From positions 29,936,347 through 30,000,346 of the forward strand of contig OZ024798.1 in the NCBI GenBank assembly GCA_964017045.1: 64,000 nucleotides of DNA. The letters are read 5' to 3'. A model generated the notes under the pieces. That model was not told the origin of the DNA and made no database searches. It saw only the letters and a list, made by a program, of their open reading frames with translations. Source of the DNA: Omphiscola glabra (lineage: Eukaryota > Mollusca > Gastropoda > Lymnaeidae). Shown piece by piece: positions 4,620-44,443 of the stretch (position 1 is its first letter; each line of letters begins with the position of its first letter). Both the position numbers and the translations under genes were made by a program.

Positions 4620-7335
4620 AATATTTCTTAAAAGAAAAATTAAAATTGATCAACAACCATGTTACAGTGTGAATGGCTGATAGAGTATTTGTTCACCATC
4701 AGTGGCGATTCAAAATATGGGTGCAATGCAATCACAAAAGAATAAAGAAAACGTTTTCCCGATTGAGATCCACTCCGCTCCCACTGTCTCACGTATTAGC
4801 CAACAGAATTGACAAGACTACCAAATTATACACGTTTGCCTACCAGACTGTCGCACAGAACCGTGACTCAATTACAGGGTGGCAATAGATTCGTCTCCTC
4901 TATGGTCACCATGTTATCACCTGTAGTTTGCTTTGTACTGTATAGGTGGCGATGATAAGTGATAATTCGTTTGGGGTCTTTTACACTTAACTATCTCGTT
5001 GTTTTAGGAACTTTAAAAAAAAATGCTTCGCTTCGCAAAACTATGAATTGTAACAATTATCGAGGCTTGTCAACATCCATAGTTTAAGAACCATATTTGA
5101 TTTGTGAATGATTTCTCAAGTCTAACCTCTTAGATATTTTTTTTGTAATTAACATTGACTAATTCCGTCATCCTATAATGCCTATAGGTGCGTTTTTTCT
5201 ACATTTGTATACCAATTCTACAATTAAAAATTGTCTTTTAATTCAGGCGTTGTAGGCTCGGGGAGACCCAGACATCTGATATTCTTCGTGTACAGCTTTC
5301 ATCCATACTGTGCTTTGTAATTCTGAGTTATGTCTTGGACCCAGCTGTCTCTAATCCCCGGTCTTACAGCCGGCCGTCACAATGCACGCGCTGGCATGTT
5401 TGCAAAGTTTAAACTTTAAAGTATCGTCCACCCCCCAACTGCCACCTAATCCGGGTACACGACCACACACACCTAGAGAACTAATGAGGTGAGTAGCTCG
5501 CGCCGTCGGCCACGTGTGTTCAATGAGCGTAAAACTAGAGCTTAGTCCGACTGCAGAGGTGTTAAGAACTGTGCAAACATTTCGCAGATTTTTAGATTTG
5601 GCCACTTTGGCTCAATCGTGAACTCCAAACCTTTGAGGGTGGGACAGCAGACCCGAGGTTCGTGAAAACAAATGGCCGTACACGTGCTGAGCAAATATCA
5701 AGTAAAATGATTAGCCCTTTTGGGCAGGAGGTCGCGGTGGGTGCTCTCTGGGGCAGACATTAGAGCGGTGTCCAGTAAAGGCACCCCGTGGCGCGCGGAC
5801 CAAAGACTACCACGGTGCTGTATCGTGCAGTGCGCAAACAAGAGAGAAAGTGTGTGCGGGTTTTAAACTCGGGATAATTAGTGCTGGGGTCTGTTTGTGT
5901 CTAGCGCCACGTCCTCTCTGTTAGCGCCTCGTAATTCTCAACATTGAACCTGACCTGGTCATGCAGAGTTCAAAGGTCGGCTTCTGTTGACCGGCAACAG
6001 TGATGTCCACCCATGTGGACCGGCACACGCTGGGACCGGCGTTGTGCTGACCAAGGACGTGAGAACGGTGTTACATAATCTCTTGTATATATTTTGCTTC
6101 TGGTGTGTCCTGCTTCCTTTTCGAAACCACCCTCCCCCCAACTCCACATGGTTTATATTAATAGTACTAAGTGGGAAAAAAATATTGTCATACGGGAAGT
6201 GGGAACTCAGGTACATTTTGTTTTCTATAGGGGGGGGGGTGACTTACTATTACTCAATAAGGAGCCACTTGTATAATGAAGGACTGTCTGTAGGACAGTG
6301 TGTAAAGCTATTGTTTAATAAAAGCCAGCAGGTAGGGCGTAGGACTGTCTGTAGGCCTTTTGTACAGGTAGGGTATAAGGCTTTCTGTAGGCTCTTTCTC
6401 AAAATACCAGGCCCTGATTTTAAAAAAAAATGCACCTGGTTAAGCCCTAGTTTAATTTAATACGCACTGTGATTGCAATAAGTAAAAATCTTAATAAAAA
6501 GTGTTGTTGTTTTTTTTGCGGAGGGCATGGAGAACGACTTCCTCATTTTAGTGTGGTAAAGATCGGATATGGCCTCCTGGTTGTTCATGGTCATTGTATC
6601 CCCAATTGTAGGAATCGAATTCAAGTAGATTACCGCTCGAAATAATATATATATATATATATCAAAGAGACGAAAATAGCGTGCAATGTAGATTTTAAAT
6701 TTGTAAATATATCTGTTAAAGTATTAAGTGTATAGTTTCGTTTTTGCTTCGTTAGATAAAGAAATATATATTTACAATGACTTTATAGTGCTAAAAATTA
6801 AACATTTATTTATTTCGAATTCTATAAAAAATACATTTGCTTAACAAAAATAAAATTAATATTTGTAAAAAAAAAAAAAATCCTCAACCGTATAAAACTA
6901 AAGCAATTAAAAAAAAACCGAAATCAAATTTTTTCCTTTAAATAGGGCATAAATTTGCTACATATAGATCTAATAATTTTTTTAAAATGTAGTCATGATT
7001 TTCAAAACTTAATTTCATTTTTTTTAAAATAATAATAAAATCATGTGCGTTGTGTGTGAATGGAGTAAAGCTGTTGCATTTTTATATTCCTATTATGAAC
7101 ATTATTTTAAAGACATACAATTTAATTATTAACGAGAAGTGTTTATAGAGAAAAATTTATTTCTTCACAATGGACGCGTTCTTTATATGATAATTTTATT
7201 GATGTATGTAAAGTGAACCCTCGTTATCCACAAGATTTTAATTTCAACCCTTATGAAATGTTTCAGTGCTTTGAGCTTCTTGTACGGGAATATTAAATTT
7301 GTGGATAATCTTTGTCATGCGAGAAGGGGTGGTTC
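4620..7335. other. long gene-free stretch
   Basis: No gene is supported. The part at 5340-6070 is less AT-rich and has CpG sites. It includes several frames of 60-160 codons, but none shows a recognisable domain or splice context. The part at 6480-7250 is strongly AT-rich, with a (TA)n run at about 6643-6662 and A or T homopolymers. Two short direct repeats containing GTAGGACTGTCTGTAG lie at 6280-6390. Confidence 0.5.
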
Positions 7336-18468: not shown

Positions 18469-18974
18469 GTAACTCACCGTTAGAAATAGTTCAAATAGTA
18501 AAATGGTGATCAAGAAATACTCACTCAACCTTATGGGGAAAATCAATATATAGACGATGTCAAATCAATAGTGAACTAATTTGTTTTACTTTTAAATAAT
18601 GTTTTTAAATTTCAAGGGCCAGAAAATGCTGGTGTTGTGGGTGGTAGATTTAAATAATAGTAATAGTAGTATCCCAAGTCCTATGTTATTTTACAGATTG
18701 AATTTTGGTATGGATTTTAATTAAAAAAATATTCTGAAAATATACAAAAAAAAGCCATGATTTTTTAAATATATTTCAGTACATTTTGGTAAAATGAGGT
18801 TGGGACATAAGAATACAATTCGGGGGGGGGGGGGGGGGGCGCACAACACGTGCAAAAGTGTAACTAATAAGGGATTTACAATCCCGGTACTGGCTTTTTC
18901 TATTTAAATAAAAACAAAATGACATATTTGGGTGTAAGGGAGACGGTCCTGCGGTTTTTTGGGGAGTTTTGCCC
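18216..18974. other. no gene; poly(T) and poly(G) tracts
   Basis: A run of 36 T lies at 18432-18467, which could be the tail of a minus-strand retroposon, though I recognise no body next to it. A run of about 17 G lies at 18823-18839. Confidence 0.5.
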
Positions 18975-20233
18975 CAGGAAGAACAAGGTACTCAAGAGAG
19001 GAAGAACAAGGTACTCAAGAGAGGAAGAACAAGGTACTCAAGAGAGGAAGAACAAGATACTCAAGAGAGGAAGAACAAGGTACTCAAGAGAGGAAGAACA
19101 AGGTACTCAAGAGAGGAAGAACAAGATACACAAGAGAGGCAGAACAAGGTACTCAAGAGAGGAAGAACAAGGTACTCAAGAGAGAAAGAACAAGATACAC
19201 AAGAGAGGAAGAACAAGGTACTCAAGAGAGGAAGAACAAGGTACTCAAGAGAGGAAGAACAAGGTACTCAAGAGAGGAAGAACAAGGTACTCAAGAGAGG
19301 CAGAACAAGATACACAAGAGAGGAAGAACAATGTACTCAAGAGAGGAAGAACAAGGTACTCAAGAGAGGAAGAACAAGGTACTCAAGAGAGGAAGAACAA
19401 GGTACTCAAGAGAGAAAGAACAAGATACACAAGAGAGGAAGAACAAGGTACTCAAGAGAGGAAGAACAAGGTACTCAAGAGAGGAAGAACAAGGTACTCA
19501 AGAGAGGAAGAACAAGGTACTCAAGAGAGGAAGAACAAGGTACTCAAGAGAGAAAGAACAAAATACACAAGAGAGGAAGAACAAGGTACACAAGAGAGGA
19601 AGAACAAGGTACTCAAGAGAGGAAGAACAAGGTACTCAAGAGAGGAAGAACAAGGTACTCAAGACAGGAAGAACAAGGTACTCAAGAGAGGAAGAACAAG
19701 GTACTCAAGAGAGGAAGAACAAGGTACACAAGAGAGGAAGAACAAAGTACACAAGAAAGGAAGAACAAGGTACTCAAGAGAGGAAGAACAAGGTACTCAA
19801 GAGAGGAAGAACAAGGTACTCAAGAGAGGAAGAACAAGATACTCAAGAGAGGAAGAACAAGGTACTCAAGAGAGGAAGAACAAGGTACTCAAGAGAGGAA
19901 GAACAAGGTACTCAAGAGAGGAAGAACAAGGTACTCAAGAGAGGAAGAACAAGGTACTCAAGAGAGGAAGAACAAGGTACTCAAGAGAGGAAGAACAAGG
20001 TACTCAAGAGAGGAAGAACAAGGTACTCAAGAGAGGCAGAACAAGGTACTCAAAAGAGGAAGAACAAGATACACAAGAGAGGAAGAATAAGGTACACAAG
20101 AGAGGCAGAACAAGGTACTCAAGAGAGGAAGAACAAGGTACCCAAGAGAGGAAGAACAAGATACACAAGAGAGGCAGAACAAGATACACAAGAGAGGCAG
20201 AACAAGATACACAAGAGAGGCAGAACAAGATAA
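18975..20233. repeat. 23-bp minisatellite, about 55 units
   Basis: About 55 copies of a 23-bp unit containing GGAAGAACAAGGTACTCAAG. The strand is purine-rich, so it may adopt unusual structure. All three forward frames stay open for more than 1.1 kb because each reads the same 23-residue peptide in rotation. Variants GATACAC, GGCAGAAC and GAGAAAG are scattered and become dense at the right end, as expected for a decayed edge. Confidence 0.97.
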
Positions 20234-20239
20234 ACAGAG

Positions 20240-22896
20240 AATAAATGGGTGCATTTGACGAGTATATCAATAACTCAGAGTTCAAATAGGTGACACACCG
20301 GATATTGGTATATGGAACGTTTTAAAACTAATGATATAATGTATTTTTTTTAACGCAAACACATTTCAGTCGTAGGAAAGAGATGTCTACATATTTATGA
20401 GTATATCATTATTTGTATATTTTAAAAATGCATTATACAAATTTCTTAAAAATTCCTTTTTATTTGGATAACGTTATCTAAAAACGCAATCATTTTTACA
20501 GACGTAAACATTTAATATCTTAAAAAAGAAACAATTTTTTTTTTATGTTCAGAAAATAAAGTTCAGTGGCGTTAAAAGCTAAGGGGCAATTTTTTTCTTT
20601 AAATATAAGGAAATATTTTTTTTTTTTTTATTTTTTTTTTTTACATTTTGTGTCAAATACAGTTTAAGGGCATAGGAAATTTCTATGAGATTAGAATAGT
20701 TCTTCAAAAACAACAGACAGATTTTTATTATTGGTTAACAGATTTTTCTTTAAATAAAATAATTATGTTTGTTTTTTTTCAACGATTTTACAATAATATA
20801 GTTCATGGGCGAGGCATCGCATGTGTAAACTTTTAATGAAGATTAAACCATATCAAATCCGTTAATGCGACACACATAATAAAATAATACAAAGATTTTT
20901 AAGAACGTTAATGACACGTTTCACATTTTTTTAAAATTTATTTTATAAGAAATTTTTTTTTTCTTTGTTGTTTAAGGGTCGTAAATTAATAACGTCAATA
21001 ATTTTTACGCAATTTTGTACCCCCCCCCCTTTCCGACCCATGTCAATAACTGTGAAACATTCAATGACCCCTCCCCTATTTATGTCAACAATTTATACCC
21101 CCCCCCCTCCCCCCTTCCGGCCAAAAAAAAAAGAATTATAATATAAATAAATTTATAAATACATTTCACTTTGTGCTGATCTATTTTAATGACATAAAAT
21201 TGTAGGAAGAACATTTTATTGCATCTTAAGCTTGTTAATCATCAAGTTAAAAAGTTTTACACTTAAATCTTATTATGCAGAATCAATCAAAAGGTTGTTA
21301 AAGACTAAATATCATTGTATGTGGAAGTATAAATATGATTATTGTATAGCTGACAATTATAGTATAGTTTCTAGCTGCTATCATCTTCCCATGGAGTAGC
21401 CAGGTGTTGCTCTATCGTAACAATGGGCATCAGAGACATCATTTGTGTAGGGCAGGGGGGCATTCCCCCCTGAATTTGCAGGTTTTCTTAAAATTGCTAT
21501 GTATACCCTGGCGCCCCCAGTAATAAATAACTTAACAAGCCGACCAAGATATGGTTTTGCCCCACACCCCCTTGAAAAAGCCCTGGCATGACGGCTCCGA
21601 TGTGCATAGTCTATAGTCGCTGATTTTCATCTTGTGGAACTGATATACCACACAGGTCAACATCATCCTCATCTAACTATTCAGCATTTTAAAAAGAAGC
21701 ATTGTCGGTGTGAGCTCTCTTTATCTCGCATTTTTCGAATCCTTTTTTGTTGAGGAGCAGGTGCTAATTTCTTATGCCATGTCCTTATAGGGGAAATTGT
21801 CGGTTCTGTTGAACATGCATTTTCAACATGGCTTGTGATGCAAAATAGATGTTACAGATTTTGCCAATCCGTTCAAGCAGCGATGTTGTTATTGTCAATT
21901 ACTTTACTTTCCCATTTTTTCTCAAAATATCGTATTCCTACTCTATCAATATCATTTATCTATACTGCACATGACACTAGAACCTTGTCCTTCTTCCATA
22001 CCTGCAACATAATCGCAAAAATACCGCCCTAGTCATTTGCGACAAACAGAATCTACAGGTGAAGAGAGGCCAACTTTTGACTTCTCTTGCACTAACAAAA
22101 CGTGCTAACATTCTGACCAGCCATCTGCAGTGCACAGACACACATAGAATAAACCTTACATTGTTAAAAAAACAAAAAAAATTATATGACTATTTATTGT
22201 TTTTGGAATGATGTCAATTTTTTAGATTAAAATTTTAATAGAGAAAATCTGATTGTTGACGTCAACTAATCTGAACCCCCACTCCCCCTTGTATACAACT
22301 TTCAAACATTTCCAAACCCTATCCCGTTATTTTCTTGACGTAATTAAGGGACGCCTTAGGGGCGTGAAAACAATTTGATAGGCCTAAAAAAAAATTTAAA
22401 GGATCAAACCCAATGGTGTTAGAGAGGTAAAAATCTATAAATAGAGTATTCTTTACAAATTATGGAATACTCATTTTCTATTTCCTAAATATTCATTTCA
22501 AGTGCGTTGAAGAATTATTATTATTATTTTTTTTCTAATTGGTTTGTTGTTTTTTTTGTTGTTGAGAATTCAATACATTAAAATCCGATTAAGTTACATA
22601 CGTCAGAATCGGATTTTTAGATGTTTAGACATCGAAGGTGGAAAGTATAGCATTGTGCCTTTCAGTATTAACCCGGTAACACTGGATCATATTTTCTAGT
22701 ATGTACAAAATTCAATCCCAATTAAACATCCCCTAGCTGACATTGAAACTAATAACGATTATTTGTCATGTTTGGCCAACTGTTATTTTATTCTCGAACC
22801 GCCAACATTTCCGGCTCCGCATCACTACTACCGAGGTCTGATATAAGTTACAATATTTTTTTATTTTTTTTAAACTCTTAATCCCTGGCTTGATGT
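20240..22896. other. long AT-rich gene-free stretch
   Basis: No coding frame is supported. T-rich and A-rich runs are frequent (20520-20645). C-rich runs lie at 21020-21030 and 21100-21117. The part at 21390-21600 has a GC-richer block (GGGCAGGGGGGCATTCCCCC, an imperfect palindrome), possibly a degraded transposon. None of the frames at 20648-20836 or 21835-22032 shows a domain. Confidence 0.45.
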
Positions 22897-26035: not shown

Positions 26036-26292
26036 AGAGGCTTTTTGGAATGTGTTGTTTCTTTGTCTAGCTACAAGAACCTTTACTATTACACACGTTC
26101 ACTTACACCTTACACCGTGCTACTGAACAACGTCCTTCCATGCTTACATTGTGCTCCTGTGAAATATTCAATCACAGACTTCGCTGAGGCTGAACTGTTC
26201 TGTATTATGAACTTTGGCCCTTGAACCCGGAGAAAATACTTCACAACAAAAGGAATACATCTGAAAGTGTTACAATCTGAACTGTAACGATC

Positions 26293-28716
26293 GTAAAATT
26301 ACATCGTGGGGAGGGGGGGGGGCATGAAAGTACATCGTGGGGAGGGGGGCATGAAAGTACATCGTGGGGAGGGGGGTCATGAAAGTACATCGTGGGGAGG
26401 GGGGGCATGAAAGTACATCGTGGGGAGGGGGGCATGAAAGTACATCGTGGGGAGGGGGGGCATGAAAGTACATCGTGGGGAGGGGGGGCATGAAAGTACA
26501 TCGTGGGGAGGGGGGCATGAAAGTACATCGTGGGGAGGGGGGGCATGAAAGTACATCGTGGGGAGGGGGGGCATGAAAGTACATCGTGGGGAGGGGGGGC
26601 ATGAAAGTACATCGTGGGGAGGGGGGCATGAAAGCACATCGTGGTGAGGGGGGGCATGAAAGTACATCGTGGGGAGGGGGGGCATGAAAGTACATCGTGG
26701 GGAGGGGGGCATGAAAGTACATCGTGGGGAGGGGGGCATGAAAGTACATCGTGGGGAGGGGGGGCATGAAAGTACATCGTGGGGAGGGGGGGCATGAAAG
26801 TACATCGTGGGGAAGGGGGGCATGAAAGTACATCGTGGGGAGGGGGGGCATGAAAGTACATCGTGGGGAGGGGGGGCATGAAAGTACATCGTGGGGAGGG
26901 GGGTCATGAAAGTACATCGTGGGGAAGGGGGTCATGAAAGTACATCGTGGGGAGGTGGGGCATGAAAGTACATCGTGGGGAGGGGGTCATGAAAGTACAT
27001 CGTGGGGAGGGGGGTCATGAAAGTTAATCGTGGGGAGGGGGGCATGAAAGTACATCGTGGGGAGGGGGGTCATGAAAGTTAATCGTGGGGAGGGGGGCAT
27101 GAAAGTACATCGTGGGGAGGGGGGGCATGAAAGTACATCGTGGGGAAGGGGGCCATGAAAGTACATCGTGGGGAGGGGGGCATGAAATTACATCGTGGGG
27201 AGGGGGGCATGAAAGTACATCGTGGGGAGGGGGGCATGAAAGTACATCGTGGGGAGGGGGGGCATGAAAGTTAATCGTGGGGAAGGGGGTCATGAAAGTA
27301 CATCGTGGGGAGGGGGGCATGAAAGTACATCGTGGGGAGGGGGGGCATGAAAGTACATCGTGGGGAGGGGGGCATGAAAGTACATCGTGGGGAGGGGGTC
27401 ATGAAAGTACATCGTGGGGAGGGGGGCATGAAAGTACATCGTGGGGAGTGGGGCATGAAAGTACATCGTGGGGAGGGGGGGCATGAAAGTACATCGTGGG
27501 GAGGGGGGGCATGAAAGTACATCGTGGGGAGGGGGGCATGAAAGTACATAGTGGGTAGGAGGGGCATGAAAGTACATCGTGGGGAGTGGGGCATGAAAGT
27601 ACATCGTGGGGAGGGGGGGCATGAAAGTACATCGTGGGGATGGGGGGCATGAAAGTACATCGTGGGGAGGGGGGCATGAAAGTACATCGTGGGGAGGAGG
27701 GGCATGAAAGTACATCGTGGGGAGGGGGGCATGAAAGTACATCGTGGGTAGGGGGGGCATGAAAGTACATCGTGGGGAGGGGGGCATGAAAGTACATCGT
27801 GGGGAGGGGGGCATGAAAGTACATCGTGGGGAGGGGGGCATGAAAGTACATCGTGGGGAGGGGGGGCATGAAAGTACATCGTGGGGAGGGGGGGCATGAA
27901 AGTACATCGTGGGGAGGGGGAGGCATGAAAGTACATCGTGGGGAGGGGGGCATGAAAGTACATCGTGGGGAGGGGGGGCATGAAAGTACATCGTGGGGAG
28001 GGGGCATGAAAGTACATCGTGGTGAGGGGGGGCATGAAAGTACATCGTGGGGAGGGGGGGCATGAAAGTACATCGTGGGGAGGGGGGCATGAAAGTACAT
28101 CGTGGGGAGGGGGGGCATGAAAGTACATCGTGGGGAGGGGGGGCATGAAAGTACATCGTGGGGAGGGGGGGCATGAAAGTACATCGTGGGGAAGGGGGGC
28201 ATGAAAGTACATCGTGGGGAGGGGGGGCATGAAAGTACATCGTGGGGAGGGGGTCATGAAAGTACATCGTGGGGAGGGGGGTCATGAAAGTACATCGTGG
28301 GGAGGGGGGTCATGAAAGTACATCGTGGGGAGGGGGGCATGAAAGTACATAGTGGGGAGGGGGTCATGAAAGTACATCGTGGGGAGGGGGGGTCATGAAA
28401 GTACATCGTGGGGAGGGGGTCATGAAAGTACATCGTGGGGAGGGGGGTCATGAAAGTACATCGTGGGGAGGGGGGCATGAAAGTACATCGTGGGGAGGGG
28501 GGGTCATGAAAGTACATCGTGGGGAGGGGGGCATGAAAGTACATCGTGGGGAAGGGGGGGCATGAAAGTACATCGTCGGGGGGGTCATGAAAGTACATCG
28601 TGGGTAATGGGGGCATGAAAGTACATCGTCGGGGGGGGGGTCATGAAAGTACATCGTGAGGAAGGGGACATGAAAGTACATCGTCGGGGGGGGGGGTCAT
28701 GAAAGTACATTGTGGG
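26293..28716. repeat. G-rich minisatellite of about 28 bp, about 86 units
   Basis: Units read CATGAAAGTACATCGTGGGG, then A and a run of 5-8 G. The G-run length varies between units, so the unit is 27-29 bp. Deviating copies (AAAGTTAATCG, GGGGTCATG, GGGTAGG, CGTCGGGGGG) are grouped towards 27.0 and 28.5-28.7 kb. Each unit offers two G tracts, so neighbouring units could form G-quadruplexes. Long C-rich frames on the minus strand, up to about 330 codons, are artefacts. Confidence 0.97.
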
Positions 28717-36955: not shown

Positions 36956-37326
36956 TTGGGAAGGTTCCGATTTGGTTTCTGTTTCATTTCCTATCCTTGC
37001 ATAATTGTTTGTTTTGTTTTTTTATTTCCCGCACATACAAGTTAGCAATCCAAAAAAAAAACTTTTTTAAAAAAGGCACAAGAACGTGCCATTTACTTAA
37101 TAATCTCGCCAAGCCCTCGTTCACGTCTCGTCTTTTGTGTCCCTCTTCCCGAGACGTGTCTCTCGGCGGTGGCAAGGAATTATTGTAGTATCCCGTCTTC
37201 GGGGGCCTATCATACGGGATACAGCTAGCGTCGAAACTAAGACAGTACGCAGTGAATTGAGTGCACTTCACATTAAGATCGACTTCACATTCACCACTTA
37301 AGACGTCTCTCACTACAGGACAGCTT

Positions 37327-37735
37327 GTCTCTTACTCCAGCATATGATTCTCTGACTTCAGCATATGATTCTCTGACTCCAGCATAGGACTCTGACTCCA
37401 GCATATGACTCTGACTCCAGCATAGGACTCTGACTCCAGCATAGGACTCTGACTCCAGCATAGGACTCTGACTCCAGCATAGCACTCTGACTCCAGCATA
37501 GGACTCTGACTCCAGCATATGACTCTGACTCCAGCATAGGACTCTGACTCCAGCATAGGACTCTGACTCCAGCATAGCACTCTGACTCCAGCATAGGACT
37601 CTGACTCCAGCATATGACTCTGACTCCAGCATAGGACTCTGACTCCAGCATAGGACTCTGACTCCAGCATATCACTCTGACTCCAGCATATGACTCTGAC
37701 TCCAGCATAGGACTCTGATTCCAGCAGAGGAGTCT
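37327..37735. repeat. 19-bp minisatellite, about 21 units
   Basis: Tandem copies of GACTCCAGCATAGGACTCT with a GG/TG/GC/TC dinucleotide variant after CATA. The first two units are longer and carry GATTCTCTGACT. Minus-strand open frames here are repeat artefacts. Confidence 0.96.
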
Positions 37736-39867: not shown

Positions 39868-41565
39868 TTTATGGCATGACTATGTTACTGACATACTGAC
39901 GTGACATAATTGTGGCATGACAATGTTACTGACATACTGACGTGACATAATTTTGGCATGACAATGCTACTGACATACTGACGTGACATAATTGTGGCAT
40001 GACAATGTTACTGGCATACTGACGTGACATACTTATTTCATGACCATGTTTCTGACATACTGGCGTGACATAATTAAGGCATGACAATGCTACTGACATA
40101 CTGACGTGACATAAGTATGGCATGAAAATGCTACTGACATACTGACATACTGACGTAACATAATTATGGCATGACAATGTTACTGACATACTGACGTGAC
40201 ATAACTATGGCATGACAATGTTACTGACATACTGACGTGAAATAATTAAGGCATGACAATGCTACTGACATACTGACGTGACATAATTATGGCATGACAA
40301 TGTTACTGACATACTGACGTGAAATAATTAAGGCATGACAATGTTACTGACATACTGACGTGAAATAATTAAGGCATGACAATGTTACTGACATACTGAC
40401 GTGACATAACTATGGCATGACAATGTTACTGACATACTGACGTGAAATAATTAAGGCATGACAATGTTACTGACATACTGACGTAACATAATTATGGCAT
40501 GACAATGTTACTGACATACTGACGTGACATAACTATGGCATGACAATGTTACTGACATACTGACGTGAAATAATTAAGGCATGACAATGCTACTGACATA
40601 CTGACGTGACATAATTATGGCATGACAATGTTACTGACATACTGACGTGAAATAATTAAGGCATGACAATGTTACTGACATACTGACGTGAAATAATTAA
40701 GGCATGACAATGTTACTGACATACTGACGTGACATAACTATGGCATGACAATGTTACTGACATACTGACGTGAAATAATTAAGGCATGACAATGTTACTG
40801 ACATACTGACGTGACATAACTATGGCATGACAATGTTACTGACATACTGACGTGAAATAATTAAGGCATGACAATGCTACTGACATACTGACGTGACATA
40901 ATTATGGCATGACAATGTTACTGACATACTGACGTGAAATAATTAAGGCATGACAATGTTAATGACATACTGACGTGACATACTTATTTCATGACCATGT
41001 TTCTGACATACTGGCGTGACATAATTAAGGCATGACAATGCTACTGACATACTGACGTGACATAAGTATGGCATGAAAATGCTACTGACATACTGACATA
41101 CTGACGTAACATAATTATGGCATGACAATGTTACTGACATACTGACGTGACATAACTATGGCATGACAATGTTACTGACATACTGACGTGAAATAATTAA
41201 GGCATGACAATGTTACTGACATACTGACGTGACATAACTATGGCATGACAATGTTACTGACATACTGACGTGAAATAATTAAGGCATGACAATGCTACTG
41301 ACATACTGACGTGACATAATTATGGCATGACAATGTTACTGACATACTGACGTGAAATAATTAAGGCATGACAATGTTAATGACATACTGACGTGAAATA
41401 ATTAAGGCATGACAATGTTACTGACATACTGACGTGACATAACTATGGCATGACAATGTTACTGACATACTGACGTGAAATAATTAAGGCATGACAATGC
41501 TACTGACATACTGACGTGACATAATTATGGCATGACAATGTTACTGACATACTGACGTGACACAT
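39868..41565. repeat. 41-bp minisatellite, about 41 units, with internal duplication
   Basis: Units read GGCATGACAATGTTACTGAC, ATACTGACGTGACATAA and a 4-base variable end (TTAT, CTAT, TTAA). Unusual units starting ACTTATTTCATGACC near 40031 recur near 40982, followed by the same series of rare variants. The array therefore contains a block duplication offset by 951 bp. Confidence 0.96.
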
Positions 41566-41618
41566 CATTTATTATGTTTACGCTTGAATGTAGACCTGGA
41601 TATTGCTCGCCAAAAAAA

Positions 41619-41828
41619 TGGTGGGAACCACTTCAACACTAACATTCATCATAGAACACTGTGCACCAAAGGTGGGAACCACTTCAACACTAACATTCAT
41701 CATAGAACACTGTGCACCAAAGGTGGGAACCACTTCAACACTAACATTCAGCATAGAACACTGTGCACCAAAGGTGGGAACCACTTCAACACTAACATTC
41801 ATCATAGAACACTGTGCACCAAAGGTGG
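41619..41828. repeat. 51-bp minisatellite
   Basis: Four copies of a 51-bp unit with GGTGGGAACCACTTCAACAC then TAACATTCATCATAG and CACTGTGCACCAAA. The unit is a multiple of three, so frames stay open in both directions; there is no other sign of coding. A C run follows at about 41840-41854. Confidence 0.94.
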
Positions 41829-41939
41829 GGAAATATTCTCCCCCCCCCCCCCCCAAATTACTTGCCTGGGCAACAGCCAAGTTAAGACTTTTGGGTGAGG
41901 AGGTCCTTCGCAAATTACTTCACGCTAAGGGGGTGTGGG

Positions 41940-42496: not shown

Positions 42497-42516
42497 AAAC
42501 AAGCCCGGACAAGTCC
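42497..42516 (+). promoter_or_regulatory. perfect gapless p53-family response element
   Basis: Two decamers, AAACAAGCCC and GGACAAGTCC, sit back to back. Both fit the p53 half-site RRRCWWGYYY at all ten positions, with no spacer. The site lies about 133 bp upstream of the TATA box of the CDKN1-family gene and outside the repeat that ends near 42445. p53-type factors bind such sites as tetramers, and vertebrate CDKN1A is a classic p53 target. Function here is inferred. Confidence 0.7.
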
Positions 42517-42552: not shown

Positions 42553-42598
42553 TTTCGCGCCGTTCAAAGCTGTTCGCGCACGCCAGAAACCAACCAAT
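42553..42598 (+). promoter_or_regulatory. E2F-like site, CHR-like hexamer and CCAAT box
   Basis: TTTCGCGC at 42553-42560 fits the E2F consensus. TTCAAA at 42563-42568 is the complement of the cell-cycle homology region TTTGAA. CCAAT lies at 42594-42598, about 50 bp upstream of the TATA box. This cluster fits a cell-cycle-regulated promoter. The E2F and CHR order is not the classical CDE-CHR spacing, so joint use is uncertain. Confidence 0.5.
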
Positions 42599-42648
42599 CA
42601 AATAATCGCGCAGCCACGCTTGGAACCCTCGCTTCCCCACCTTGGTGG

Positions 42649-42656
42649 TATATAAG
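42649..42656 (+). promoter_or_regulatory. TATA box of the CDKN1-family gene
   Basis: TATATAAG lies 206 bp upstream of the first in-frame ATG. A transcript would start near 42680, giving a 5'UTR of about 180-210 bases. Confidence 0.65.
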
Positions 42657-42692
42657 CTTTAGGCTCCTCTGTGCTTGTTTCAAATTTAGGCA

Positions 42693-42861: not shown

Positions 42862-43546
42862 ATGTCAGTCCAGCTAGCCGAGTTAATCATGTTTAATTTC
42901 GACGGAAACTTGAAGCGGACCTCCAACGTTAAGAGAAACCTTTTTGGTACGCCCAAGAAGGATACGCTCAATGAGGTCCTGGGGAATCAGGAAAAATCAT
43001 TCAACGATACGGACAGGTTTAGAGATAGATGGGGATTCGATCCGTCGACCGGTCGACCCGTGAACGGATCGAAATACGAGTGGGAAGCGATCAAATCGAG
43101 CGAGGTGCCGTCATACTACACCAAACCCTATGCACAGAAAGTTGAGAAACGTGGTTACGACGGTTCGAGGAGGCTGGACACACGGCAGCAACGCACTGGC
43201 ACTTCTCGACCCGTGGGGTCGGCCAAACGAAAACTGGATCTTTATATAAACGACGAGAACCACCAGGTTCTGGAAGAGGATCATGATGACCGTGTGTCGT
43301 GTAAGGACCTGATCGACGGCACCGCGAAAAGCGTGGACAGCTCCAGTTCGAGTGTCTTGGTCAACGAGCGATTGTGTCCTCCAAATTGTGTGTCCGATTC
43401 ACCACCTTTTGGATTAATACCTAGATCGTCGTCCAGCAGCTCGCTCCCGGAGCTCATGTCAGTGCCCAGTCATGATATTTTGGCCAAGGAATATTCAACG
43501 CCGACATCGGCATCGCCAAAAAGGTTAAACCAAAGTTCAATAACAG
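42862..43546 (+). CDS. CDKN1: CDKN1 (Cip/Kip) cyclin-dependent kinase inhibitor, coding exon 1
   Basis: This encodes residues 1-228 of a predicted 248-residue nuclear inhibitor of cyclin-CDK complexes. Residues 24-90 form the CDK-inhibitor domain. KRNLFG (24-29) is the cyclin-docking RxLFG motif. DRWGFDPSTG through KYEWEAI (55-77) matches the CDK-binding strand of p27. VPSYYTKPY (82-90) matches the 3-10 helix that fills the CDK ATP pocket, keeping the equivalent of p27 Tyr88. Residues 100-223 are Ser-rich and likely disordered, with TP (30, 213) and SP (218) sites. QSSIT (224-228) begins a PIP degron completed in exon 2. The donor is ACAG|GTAGGC, phase 1. The ATG at 42862 has a weak context (T at -3). 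The ATG at 42889 (Met10) has A at -3 and could be the true start. Upstream sequence is open to 42748 but has no in-frame ATG. Confidence 0.93.
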
Positions 43547-44381
43547 GTAGGCATTTTTTCTCTTTCCTCAATATAATTTACTCGGATAAAGGTGTTAAAA
43601 AATCGATTTACTTATTTATCGATGCGATGAAAATGTTTGAAATCAAGATTTTGTAGTTGTTTAAGACAACAGAAACAGAGAGGGAGGCAAGGTATCAAAT
43701 TTAACGGCTAGGATCGTGTCATGAAGTCTATCGCCATCACTTTAACTTCAAAAATAATTGAAACGGAAAATTACTACCCAATTCGGCCTAGTTTATTCTA
43801 TTGCTTTGTTTTCCCTACATCGCATTTTTAGACTATCGTTTACTGTTAAATGATTAAATCTGATTGTGTTGAGCCTGTCCTGGTCAAATCATTCTAGGCT
43901 TGGTAGATTTCAAATCGGGGGATCAATACTTGGGGCAGTCCGCTTCGCCGCCATTGGTTGACTGACTGAGTATACAACTTTATTTTAAGCAAGTCCTGGC
44001 GTGGCGGATTTTTTTTTTGTCTTCACAGCTTCAGGTCACTATAGTCCTAGTTCTTAACTGTAGACCACGGCTACGTTATTCTCGGTGTACGCCTGGGCCA
44101 AAGTTTACCGCTTGAAGGCCAAGCGTGTTCGTTCACATTAATTTTGTGGAAAGGTTGAAATCCTAATCATATCAATATATATTCAACTGGCTGCTACTAA
44201 CTATTACTATGCTACTTAAAATCGATGAGCAAAATTTTTTATTTTAAAAATGGCTGCAGTCTCATTAGCATAAGACTTTGTTTCGTTTTATTTACCGTTA
44301 TTAATTTATAAAATGTTTTGCTACTCCCGTTGTTATCAGCTAATTTTTTACTATTATCTTTCGTTTTCTCCATATCCACAG
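43547..44381 (+). other. CDKN1 intron 1 (835 bp, phase 1)
   Basis: GT at 43547 and AG at 44380-44381 bound it, with the pyrimidine-rich tract TTTCGTTTTCTCCATATCCA before the acceptor. It splits codon 229 (G|AC, Asp) of the PIP degron. If retained, the frame stays open to TAG at 43654-43656 and gives a 264-residue form with Gly in place of the Asp and no degron or basic tail. Confidence 0.88.
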
Positions 44382-44443
44382 ACTTTCTCCCGCTTAAGAA
44401 GAAAAGATGTCTTTCAAGTCCTAAGGCCATTAAGAGGACATGA
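44382..44443 (+). CDS. CDKN1: CDKN1 coding exon 2: end of PIP degron, basic tail, stop
   Basis: The exon (44382-44447) adds Asp229 and 19 further residues, then TGA at 44441-44443. Joined to exon 1 it gives QSSITDFL followed by PLKKKRC. This fits a PIP box with the specialised Thr-Asp pair and a basic residue (Lys235) at +4, the features of a CRL4-Cdt2 PIP degron as in vertebrate p21. Leu231 replaces the usual second aromatic. KKKR (234-237) is a likely nuclear-localisation signal, and SSP (240-242) is a possible CDK site. The donor AACAG|GTACGT follows the stop by four bases, too close to trigger nonsense-mediated decay by the usual 50-base rule. A C-terminal exon of this kind also occurs in vertebrate CDKN1 genes (recalled). 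Confidence 0.9.

Follow-up and report, generated by a model that had tools for sequence, protein, structure and literature searches.

In vertebrates, the activation of p21 by p53 is the central circuit of cell-cycle arrest. Whether p53 acts directly on a cyclin-dependent kinase inhibitor (CKI) gene in molluscs as well is the question raised by a locus of the snail Omphiscola glabra, at which a p53-type element precedes a gene of the Cip/Kip (CDKN1) family. The whole stretch of DNA analysed, hereafter the window, spans 64 kb (C5:29936347-30000346), and the scans were extended to 744,774,263 bases (744.8 Mb) of the snail's own genome. A 2025 study calls the link between p53 and such inhibitors in invertebrates less clear (PMC12693960), and our literature search, with most subscription journals outside its reach, found no paper in which a p53 site had been mapped to a Cip/Kip gene of a mollusc.

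A gapless p53-type site in a putative compact promoter

The consensus scan of the window, allowing up to three mismatches, returned ten matches, nine of which carry three mismatches each. The remaining match carries none (Table 1). Its full 20-mer, AAACAAGCCCGGACAAGTCC, is composed of two RRRCWWGYYY decamers within the 0-13 bp spacing of p53 elements and agrees with the consensus RRRCWWGYYYRRRCWWGYYY at every position. No second combination of two perfect half-sites 0-13 bp apart turned up in a pattern scan of the 64-kb window. The preliminary description had reported these two decamers, and their letters and coordinates proved exact on recheck. The distances it gave were also reproduced, with 133 bp between the end of the 20-mer and the start of the TATA box and 346 bp between the end of the 20-mer and the first ATG of the long downstream frame. 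We take the matches at 42553 and 42592 to be motifs of the E2F and NF-Y types. The arrangement is that of a putative compact, cell-cycle-like promoter with the candidate p53 site at its upstream edge.

Table 1. Features of the candidate promoter and of the Cip/Kip gene (window coordinates).
Feature	Position	Strand	Basis and remarks
Arrays of tandem repeats (41-bp and 51-bp units)	41301..41871	.	Precede the unique promoter; repeat query began at 41301; G-rich tracts then to ~42420
Candidate p53-family response element, decamers AAACAAGCCC and GGACAAGTCC	42497..42516	+	Consensus scan, 0 mismatches, spacer 0
E2F-type motif TTTCGCGC	42553..42560	+	Pattern scan only; further TTCGCGC starts at 42573
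CCAAT box AACCAATCA, NF-Y type	42592..42600	+	Pattern scan only
TATA box TATATAAG	42649..42656	+	Pattern scan only; Inr-like TCAAATT starts at 42680; start site predicted
CDKN1-like gene, first coding exon	42862..43546	+	ORF; donor GT at 43547; residues 1-228 and base 1 of codon 229
CDI (Cip/Kip inhibitor) domain	42937..43089	+	Pfam E=1.5e-9, residues 26-76; RNLFG near start, KYEW
Second coding exon, stop TGA 44441-44443	44382..44443	+	AG acceptor before 44382; completes QSSITDFLPLKKKR

The crowding of E2F-type, CCAAT and TATA motifs in so compact a promoter means that other cell-cycle factors could use the stretch, in which case the 20-mer would be constrained for another factor and its match to p53 would be incidental. 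On that view, however, the full 24 bits of agreement with the consensus would be a by-product, and among the short list of motifs scanned only the very loose DPE-like RGWYV overlaps the 20-mer. We regard such an origin of the match as very improbable.

Long open frames are also present elsewhere in the window, at 18919-20244, 26241-28616 and 37291-37708. They consist of tandem repeats that are often open in several frames at once; these are repeat arrays and are not likely to be genes.

The downstream gene encodes a Cip/Kip inhibitor

The assignment of the downstream gene to the CDKN1 (Cip/Kip) family holds, the CDI domain scoring 38.2 bits in Pfam against a cut-off of 25. Within it, the cyclin-binding RNLFG and the CDK-binding KYEW motifs align with p27 chains in the PDB. 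The two coding exons join at GT-AG sites to yield 248 residues. Two in-frame ATGs are located at 42862 and 42889, and the Lymnaea protein (P0001) begins at the residue corresponding to the first. The closest homologues in a first search, which gave two hits, were from Lymnaea stagnalis (91% identity) and from a 930-nt record (70%). The former match places the animal near Lymnaea among the snails. A profile search gave eight homologue hits, including one from Arion vulgaris, and the sequences of seven were compared (P0127 was left out). A CDI search of the whole genome scored four candidates and yielded a single match above the cut-off, the window gene itself (E=1.4e-7). The Cip/Kip gene thus seems to be single-copy, a highly divergent second copy being possible. 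No related gene was detected among the viral contigs scanned.

The C-terminal motif QSSITDFLPLKKKR resembles, by eye, the PIP box of p21 with its TD degron, which reads QTSMTDFY in human. The corresponding stretch is QSAITDFLPLKKKR in Lymnaea P0001 and QSAITDYLPLKKKI in P0002. A brittle star has QPKITDFLQQRKR and Arion has QSSMKDFLSTKKQR (QSSMKDFL, which lacks TD), and P0126 has no clear copy. An intron divides the motif within its Asp codon (QSSIT/DFL; 43531-43546 with 44382-44400). P0124 runs off after QSSITG and P0125 after QSTITG, as would be expected if an intron interrupts their genes at this point as well. The human CDKN1A intron presumably lies there too; if so, the intron position is old.

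The human p21 and p27 proteins are similar to the snail inhibitor in having a CDI domain with RNLFG and KYEW. The PIP-like C-terminus of the snail inhibitor resembles that of p21; by sequence, its 30 residues matched no PDB chain. The PDB matches of the snail inhibitor span only about residues 23-91, and over this part p27 (E=2.9e-5) is favoured over p21 (E=0.35). Invertebrate inhibitors mostly fall in a separate CKI clade (PMC12693960).

Rarity of the site and the case for coincidence

The preliminary description had set the chance expectation of a perfect gapless site at about 0.004 per 64 kb. This figure agrees with the 0.0038 obtained from 24 bits and with the 0.0030-0.0045 obtained from Markov models of orders 0-4, which were trained on the window together with 27 fetched 10-kb loci around the other gapless sites. 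Genome-wide, 28 perfect gapless sites were counted, equal to 0.0024 per 64 kb. For the genome, the Markov models of orders 0-4 predict 35-53 sites. The order-5 model, trained on few data that include the sites themselves, predicts 77 (0.0066 per 64 kb), and the reversed-pattern control gives 54. The 28 gapless sites show no excess over models and controls and therefore look like background as a class.

The 20-mer may accordingly be asked to compete with coincidence, in which one of the roughly 28-50 perfect sites of a 745-Mb genome happens to lie in the Cip/Kip promoter. The class has no genome-wide enrichment, an assumed total of 25,000 genes would put about 0.47 of the 28 sites by chance into the 500 bp preceding one gene or another, and the finding was picked by a reader who seeks striking matches. 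For any single gene chosen in advance, nevertheless, the number of gapless sites expected within 500 bp is 1.9e-5 from the observed 28 sites and 3.4e-5 from the order-1 model (50.5 sites), values that ignore how the finding was selected. With per-position values of 4.6e-8 to 8.0e-8, the local composition of the promoter adds little. If a factor of 100 is granted for a reader seeking striking pairs, the expectation still rises only to about 0.002 for the Cip/Kip gene, which belongs to the best-known class of p53 targets. The striking part is that the site falls at a Cip/Kip gene rather than at any gene. The earlier judgement that chance is unlikely is supported, from the genome-wide count and the Markov expectation, for the position of the site, and we consider coincidence unlikely, if less so than incidental overlap with another factor.

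The density of half-sites was dropped as evidence, the window containing 12 compared with 15.5 expected. Because half-sites by themselves are unremarkable, it is the gapless pair and the place where it lies that carry the claim.

The other 27 gapless sites

Each of the other 27 gapless sites was examined in 10 kb of surrounding sequence. ORFs of at least 100 residues were partly listed, and a codon-usage scan based on few training sequences was run on all 27 loci; complete ORF lists were examined for two of them (L008 and L022), and Pfam was run on nine chosen ORFs. By this crude, transcript-free gene finding, no classical p53 target was recognised at any of the 27, including the three sites with double CATG cores, a result that cautions against reading p53 control from a perfect site by itself. 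By core type, nine of the 28 gapless sites have CAAG or CTTG in both cores, among them the 20-mer of the window, and three are double CATG. Consistent with this caution, a predicted element alone is insufficient for p53 binding in human and mouse (PMC6755996). According to the same study, p53 binding has an enrichment of about 5- to 10-fold at promoters and 5´ UTRs, with conserved sites enriched about 3-fold further.

Pfam matches were obtained for five of the nine chosen ORFs: a homeodomain (L009), MORN (L027), a reverse transcriptase (L011), a transposase (L031) and a weak integrin-beta match under the cut-off (L008; E=5.1e-4). The other four, including a 624-residue frame in L005, had none. 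At L008 (C1:54452936-54462935), the gapless site GAACATGCCTGAACATGTTC at 4991, with CATG in both cores, lies amid exon-like ORFs that resemble integrin beta. At L009 (C1:79037321-79047320), the gapless site, also at 4991, is flanked by two exon-like ORFs that belong to a homeobox gene and is probably inside one of its introns; the homeodomain (E=4.2e-14) lies at 1311-2171, and a continuation, QVWFQNRRAKWRRQEK, for which Pfam gave no match, is found at 5656.

A search of the genome with the SWIB model gave one locus (C1:65509295, E=1.9e-16) with one internal stop. Considered as an MDM2 positive control, it was set aside, being either MDM2 or another SWIB-domain gene.

A candidate p53-family regulator in the same genome

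The p53-family search of the genome scored five candidates and identified one locus, on the minus strand at C13:6747291-6747785 (E=3.4e-56). Its DNA-binding domain (DBD) exon contains FMCLGSCVGGPNRRP and EVRICACPGRDRK, and therefore retains the contact residues S241, R248, R273, A276, C277 and R280 together with the zinc ligands C176, H179, C238 and C242. The human residue numbers are our own placement on the snail domain. The DNA-contact residues of p53 are listed in PMC4323202. As far as the DBD exon shows, the genome thus encodes a p53-family protein whose DNA-reading surface is conserved. K120 belongs to another exon; a lysine occupies the position in all five aligned homologues (Biomphalaria, Physella, Mya, Lottia and coelacanth). 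A tetramerisation-like stretch, VRGRENFEVLKKIRDSLELATLVP, follows further along the same strand.

The N-terminal region was considered in related snails. Biomphalaria p53 has MSQETFSHLWTVL near its N-terminus, which by eye we take to be of the FxxLWxxL type, resembling the human transactivation motif. Pfam lists its transactivation domain (TAD) model for neither Biomphalaria P0029 nor Physella P0033. In the literature, the TAD, DBD, oligomerisation and SAM domains are described as kept in molluscs, the TAD of Biomphalaria p53 being reported as not found, for which poor coverage is blamed (PMC5543598).

Of all PDB chains, the snail DBD matches 7pc6 best (E=4.3e-86). When the comparison is confined to chains named p63, p73 or p53, the domain scores best against p63 (E=2e-62), higher than against p53 chains. 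SAM domains are present in the Biomphalaria and Physella p53-family homologues (Pfam). Together with the single p53-family locus, these features are compatible with a p63-like role of the element, in development or differentiation and not in DNA-damage arrest. In schistosomes, p53-1 controls development of the tegument and is co-expressed with cki (PMC12693960), a further point in its favour. A developmental role of this kind would be a special case of p53-family binding to the 20-mer and not a competitor to it; we regard it as possible rather than probable.

Expected strength of the site

The p53 sites of human p21 are distal, lying further upstream than the snail site, which is 133 bp from its TATA box. 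The vertebrate CDKN1A elements are nonetheless alike in their plan, a full tetramer site in which two RRRCWWGYYY decamers precede a Cip/Kip gene. The human p21 element listed in PMC4323202, GAACATGTCC-cAACATGTTg, has CATG cores and two mismatches, whereas the snail site is perfect and gapless with CAAG cores.

Both cores of the 20-mer are CAAG, which is not the strongest core. In a yeast assay with human p53, CATG elements were strongest, followed by CAAG/CTTG and then by CTAG (PMC4323202). Two elements in Table 3 of that study are, like the snail site, gapless and free of mismatches: CON3, an artificial sequence (GGGCAAGTCC twice), and the human MMP2 element (AGACAAGCCT-GAACTTGTCT), which belongs to a gene of other function. 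Both have CAAG or CTTG cores. CON3, a gapless double-CAAG element, was active with human p53 in yeast and ranked second; the predicted values listed are -7.19 for CON3 and -7.11 for the human p21 element (PMC4323202). On consensus elements in the same assay, Drosophila p53 had weak activity and worm CEP-1 had none (PMC4323202), so invertebrate p53 proteins can differ. The snail DBD, being p63-like, may behave more as the vertebrate proteins do.

A probable direct p53-to-CKI link in a protostome

A perfect gapless match at the promoter of a textbook p53 target, together with its rarity there, supports a direct p53-to-CKI link in a protostome as the best reading of the locus. The 20-mer would accordingly be a bound p53-family response element that regulates the snail Cip/Kip gene, for which we estimate a probability of about 0.7. 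The apparently single p53/p63/p73 protein of the snail would bind the 20-mer as a tetramer, with two monomers per decamer, and would increase transcription from the TATA promoter that lies 133 bp downstream. Produced in this way, the inhibitor would block cyclin-CDK via its CDI domain and bind PCNA via its C-terminal motif, leading to cell-cycle arrest. The sequence itself establishes the site, its location and rarity, the identity of the gene and a p53-family gene whose contact residues are conserved; binding, activation and the stimulus, which could be DNA damage or differentiation, we infer. The locus suggests that direct p53 control of cell division, as seen in vertebrates, may extend to molluscs. 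This type of circuit is already known from vertebrates; what distinguishes the snail case is the phylum, and the perfection and closeness of the site.

Other invertebrates offer partial parallels. Drosophila dacapo is, like the snail gene, a protostome Cip/Kip gene, but p53 reportedly does not control it (PMC5725765). Schistosoma cki and p53-1 are a protostome Cip/Kip gene and a p53 gene that act together as tumour suppressors; they differ from the snail pair in that they are thought to be horizontally acquired, and transcriptional control by p53-1 has been proposed, with no binding site seen in the text consulted (PMC12693960). An oyster study used p53 and p21 reporters in HEK293T cells (PMC10164948). 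The accessible text of a Hydractinia paper contains nothing on point regarding p53 control (PMC7617468). One scenario would be an ancient bilaterian circuit of p53-family control over Cip/Kip genes, kept in molluscs via a proximal element and lost in flies. We put it forward tentatively, as less likely than not; if true, the p53-p21 checkpoint would be older than vertebrates. Conservation of the site across molluscs would imply that the circuit predates the split of vertebrates and molluscs, or that it arose twice. One defined 20-mer at what is seemingly the only Cip/Kip gene of the snail makes the open question of p53 and CKI genes testable.

Spacer-1 matches in repeats

The spacer-1 class of perfect p53 matches numbers 55 genome-wide, and its reversed control 38. 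Among the 50 listed of these 55 places, 25 lie in arrays or clusters (six on C4, five on C12, four on C3 and ten on C17). A genome-wide depletion of p53 sites (28 gapless sites vs approximately 50 from the Markov models) was considered and dropped, as the controls vary (54, 55 and 38) and the spacer-1 places are repeat-rich. Short tandem arrays with an 11-bp unit at C4:41748922-41748997 and C12:30595606-30595670 yield six and five overlapping perfect spacer-1 matches, respectively. On C17, at least ten perfect spacer-1 matches occur within 200 kb (28875187-29073181), in what may be a repeat family or a gene cluster; the letters of three of them are GGGCATGTTTAGGGCATGTTT (two matches) and GAACATGTTTAGGGCATGCCC (one match).
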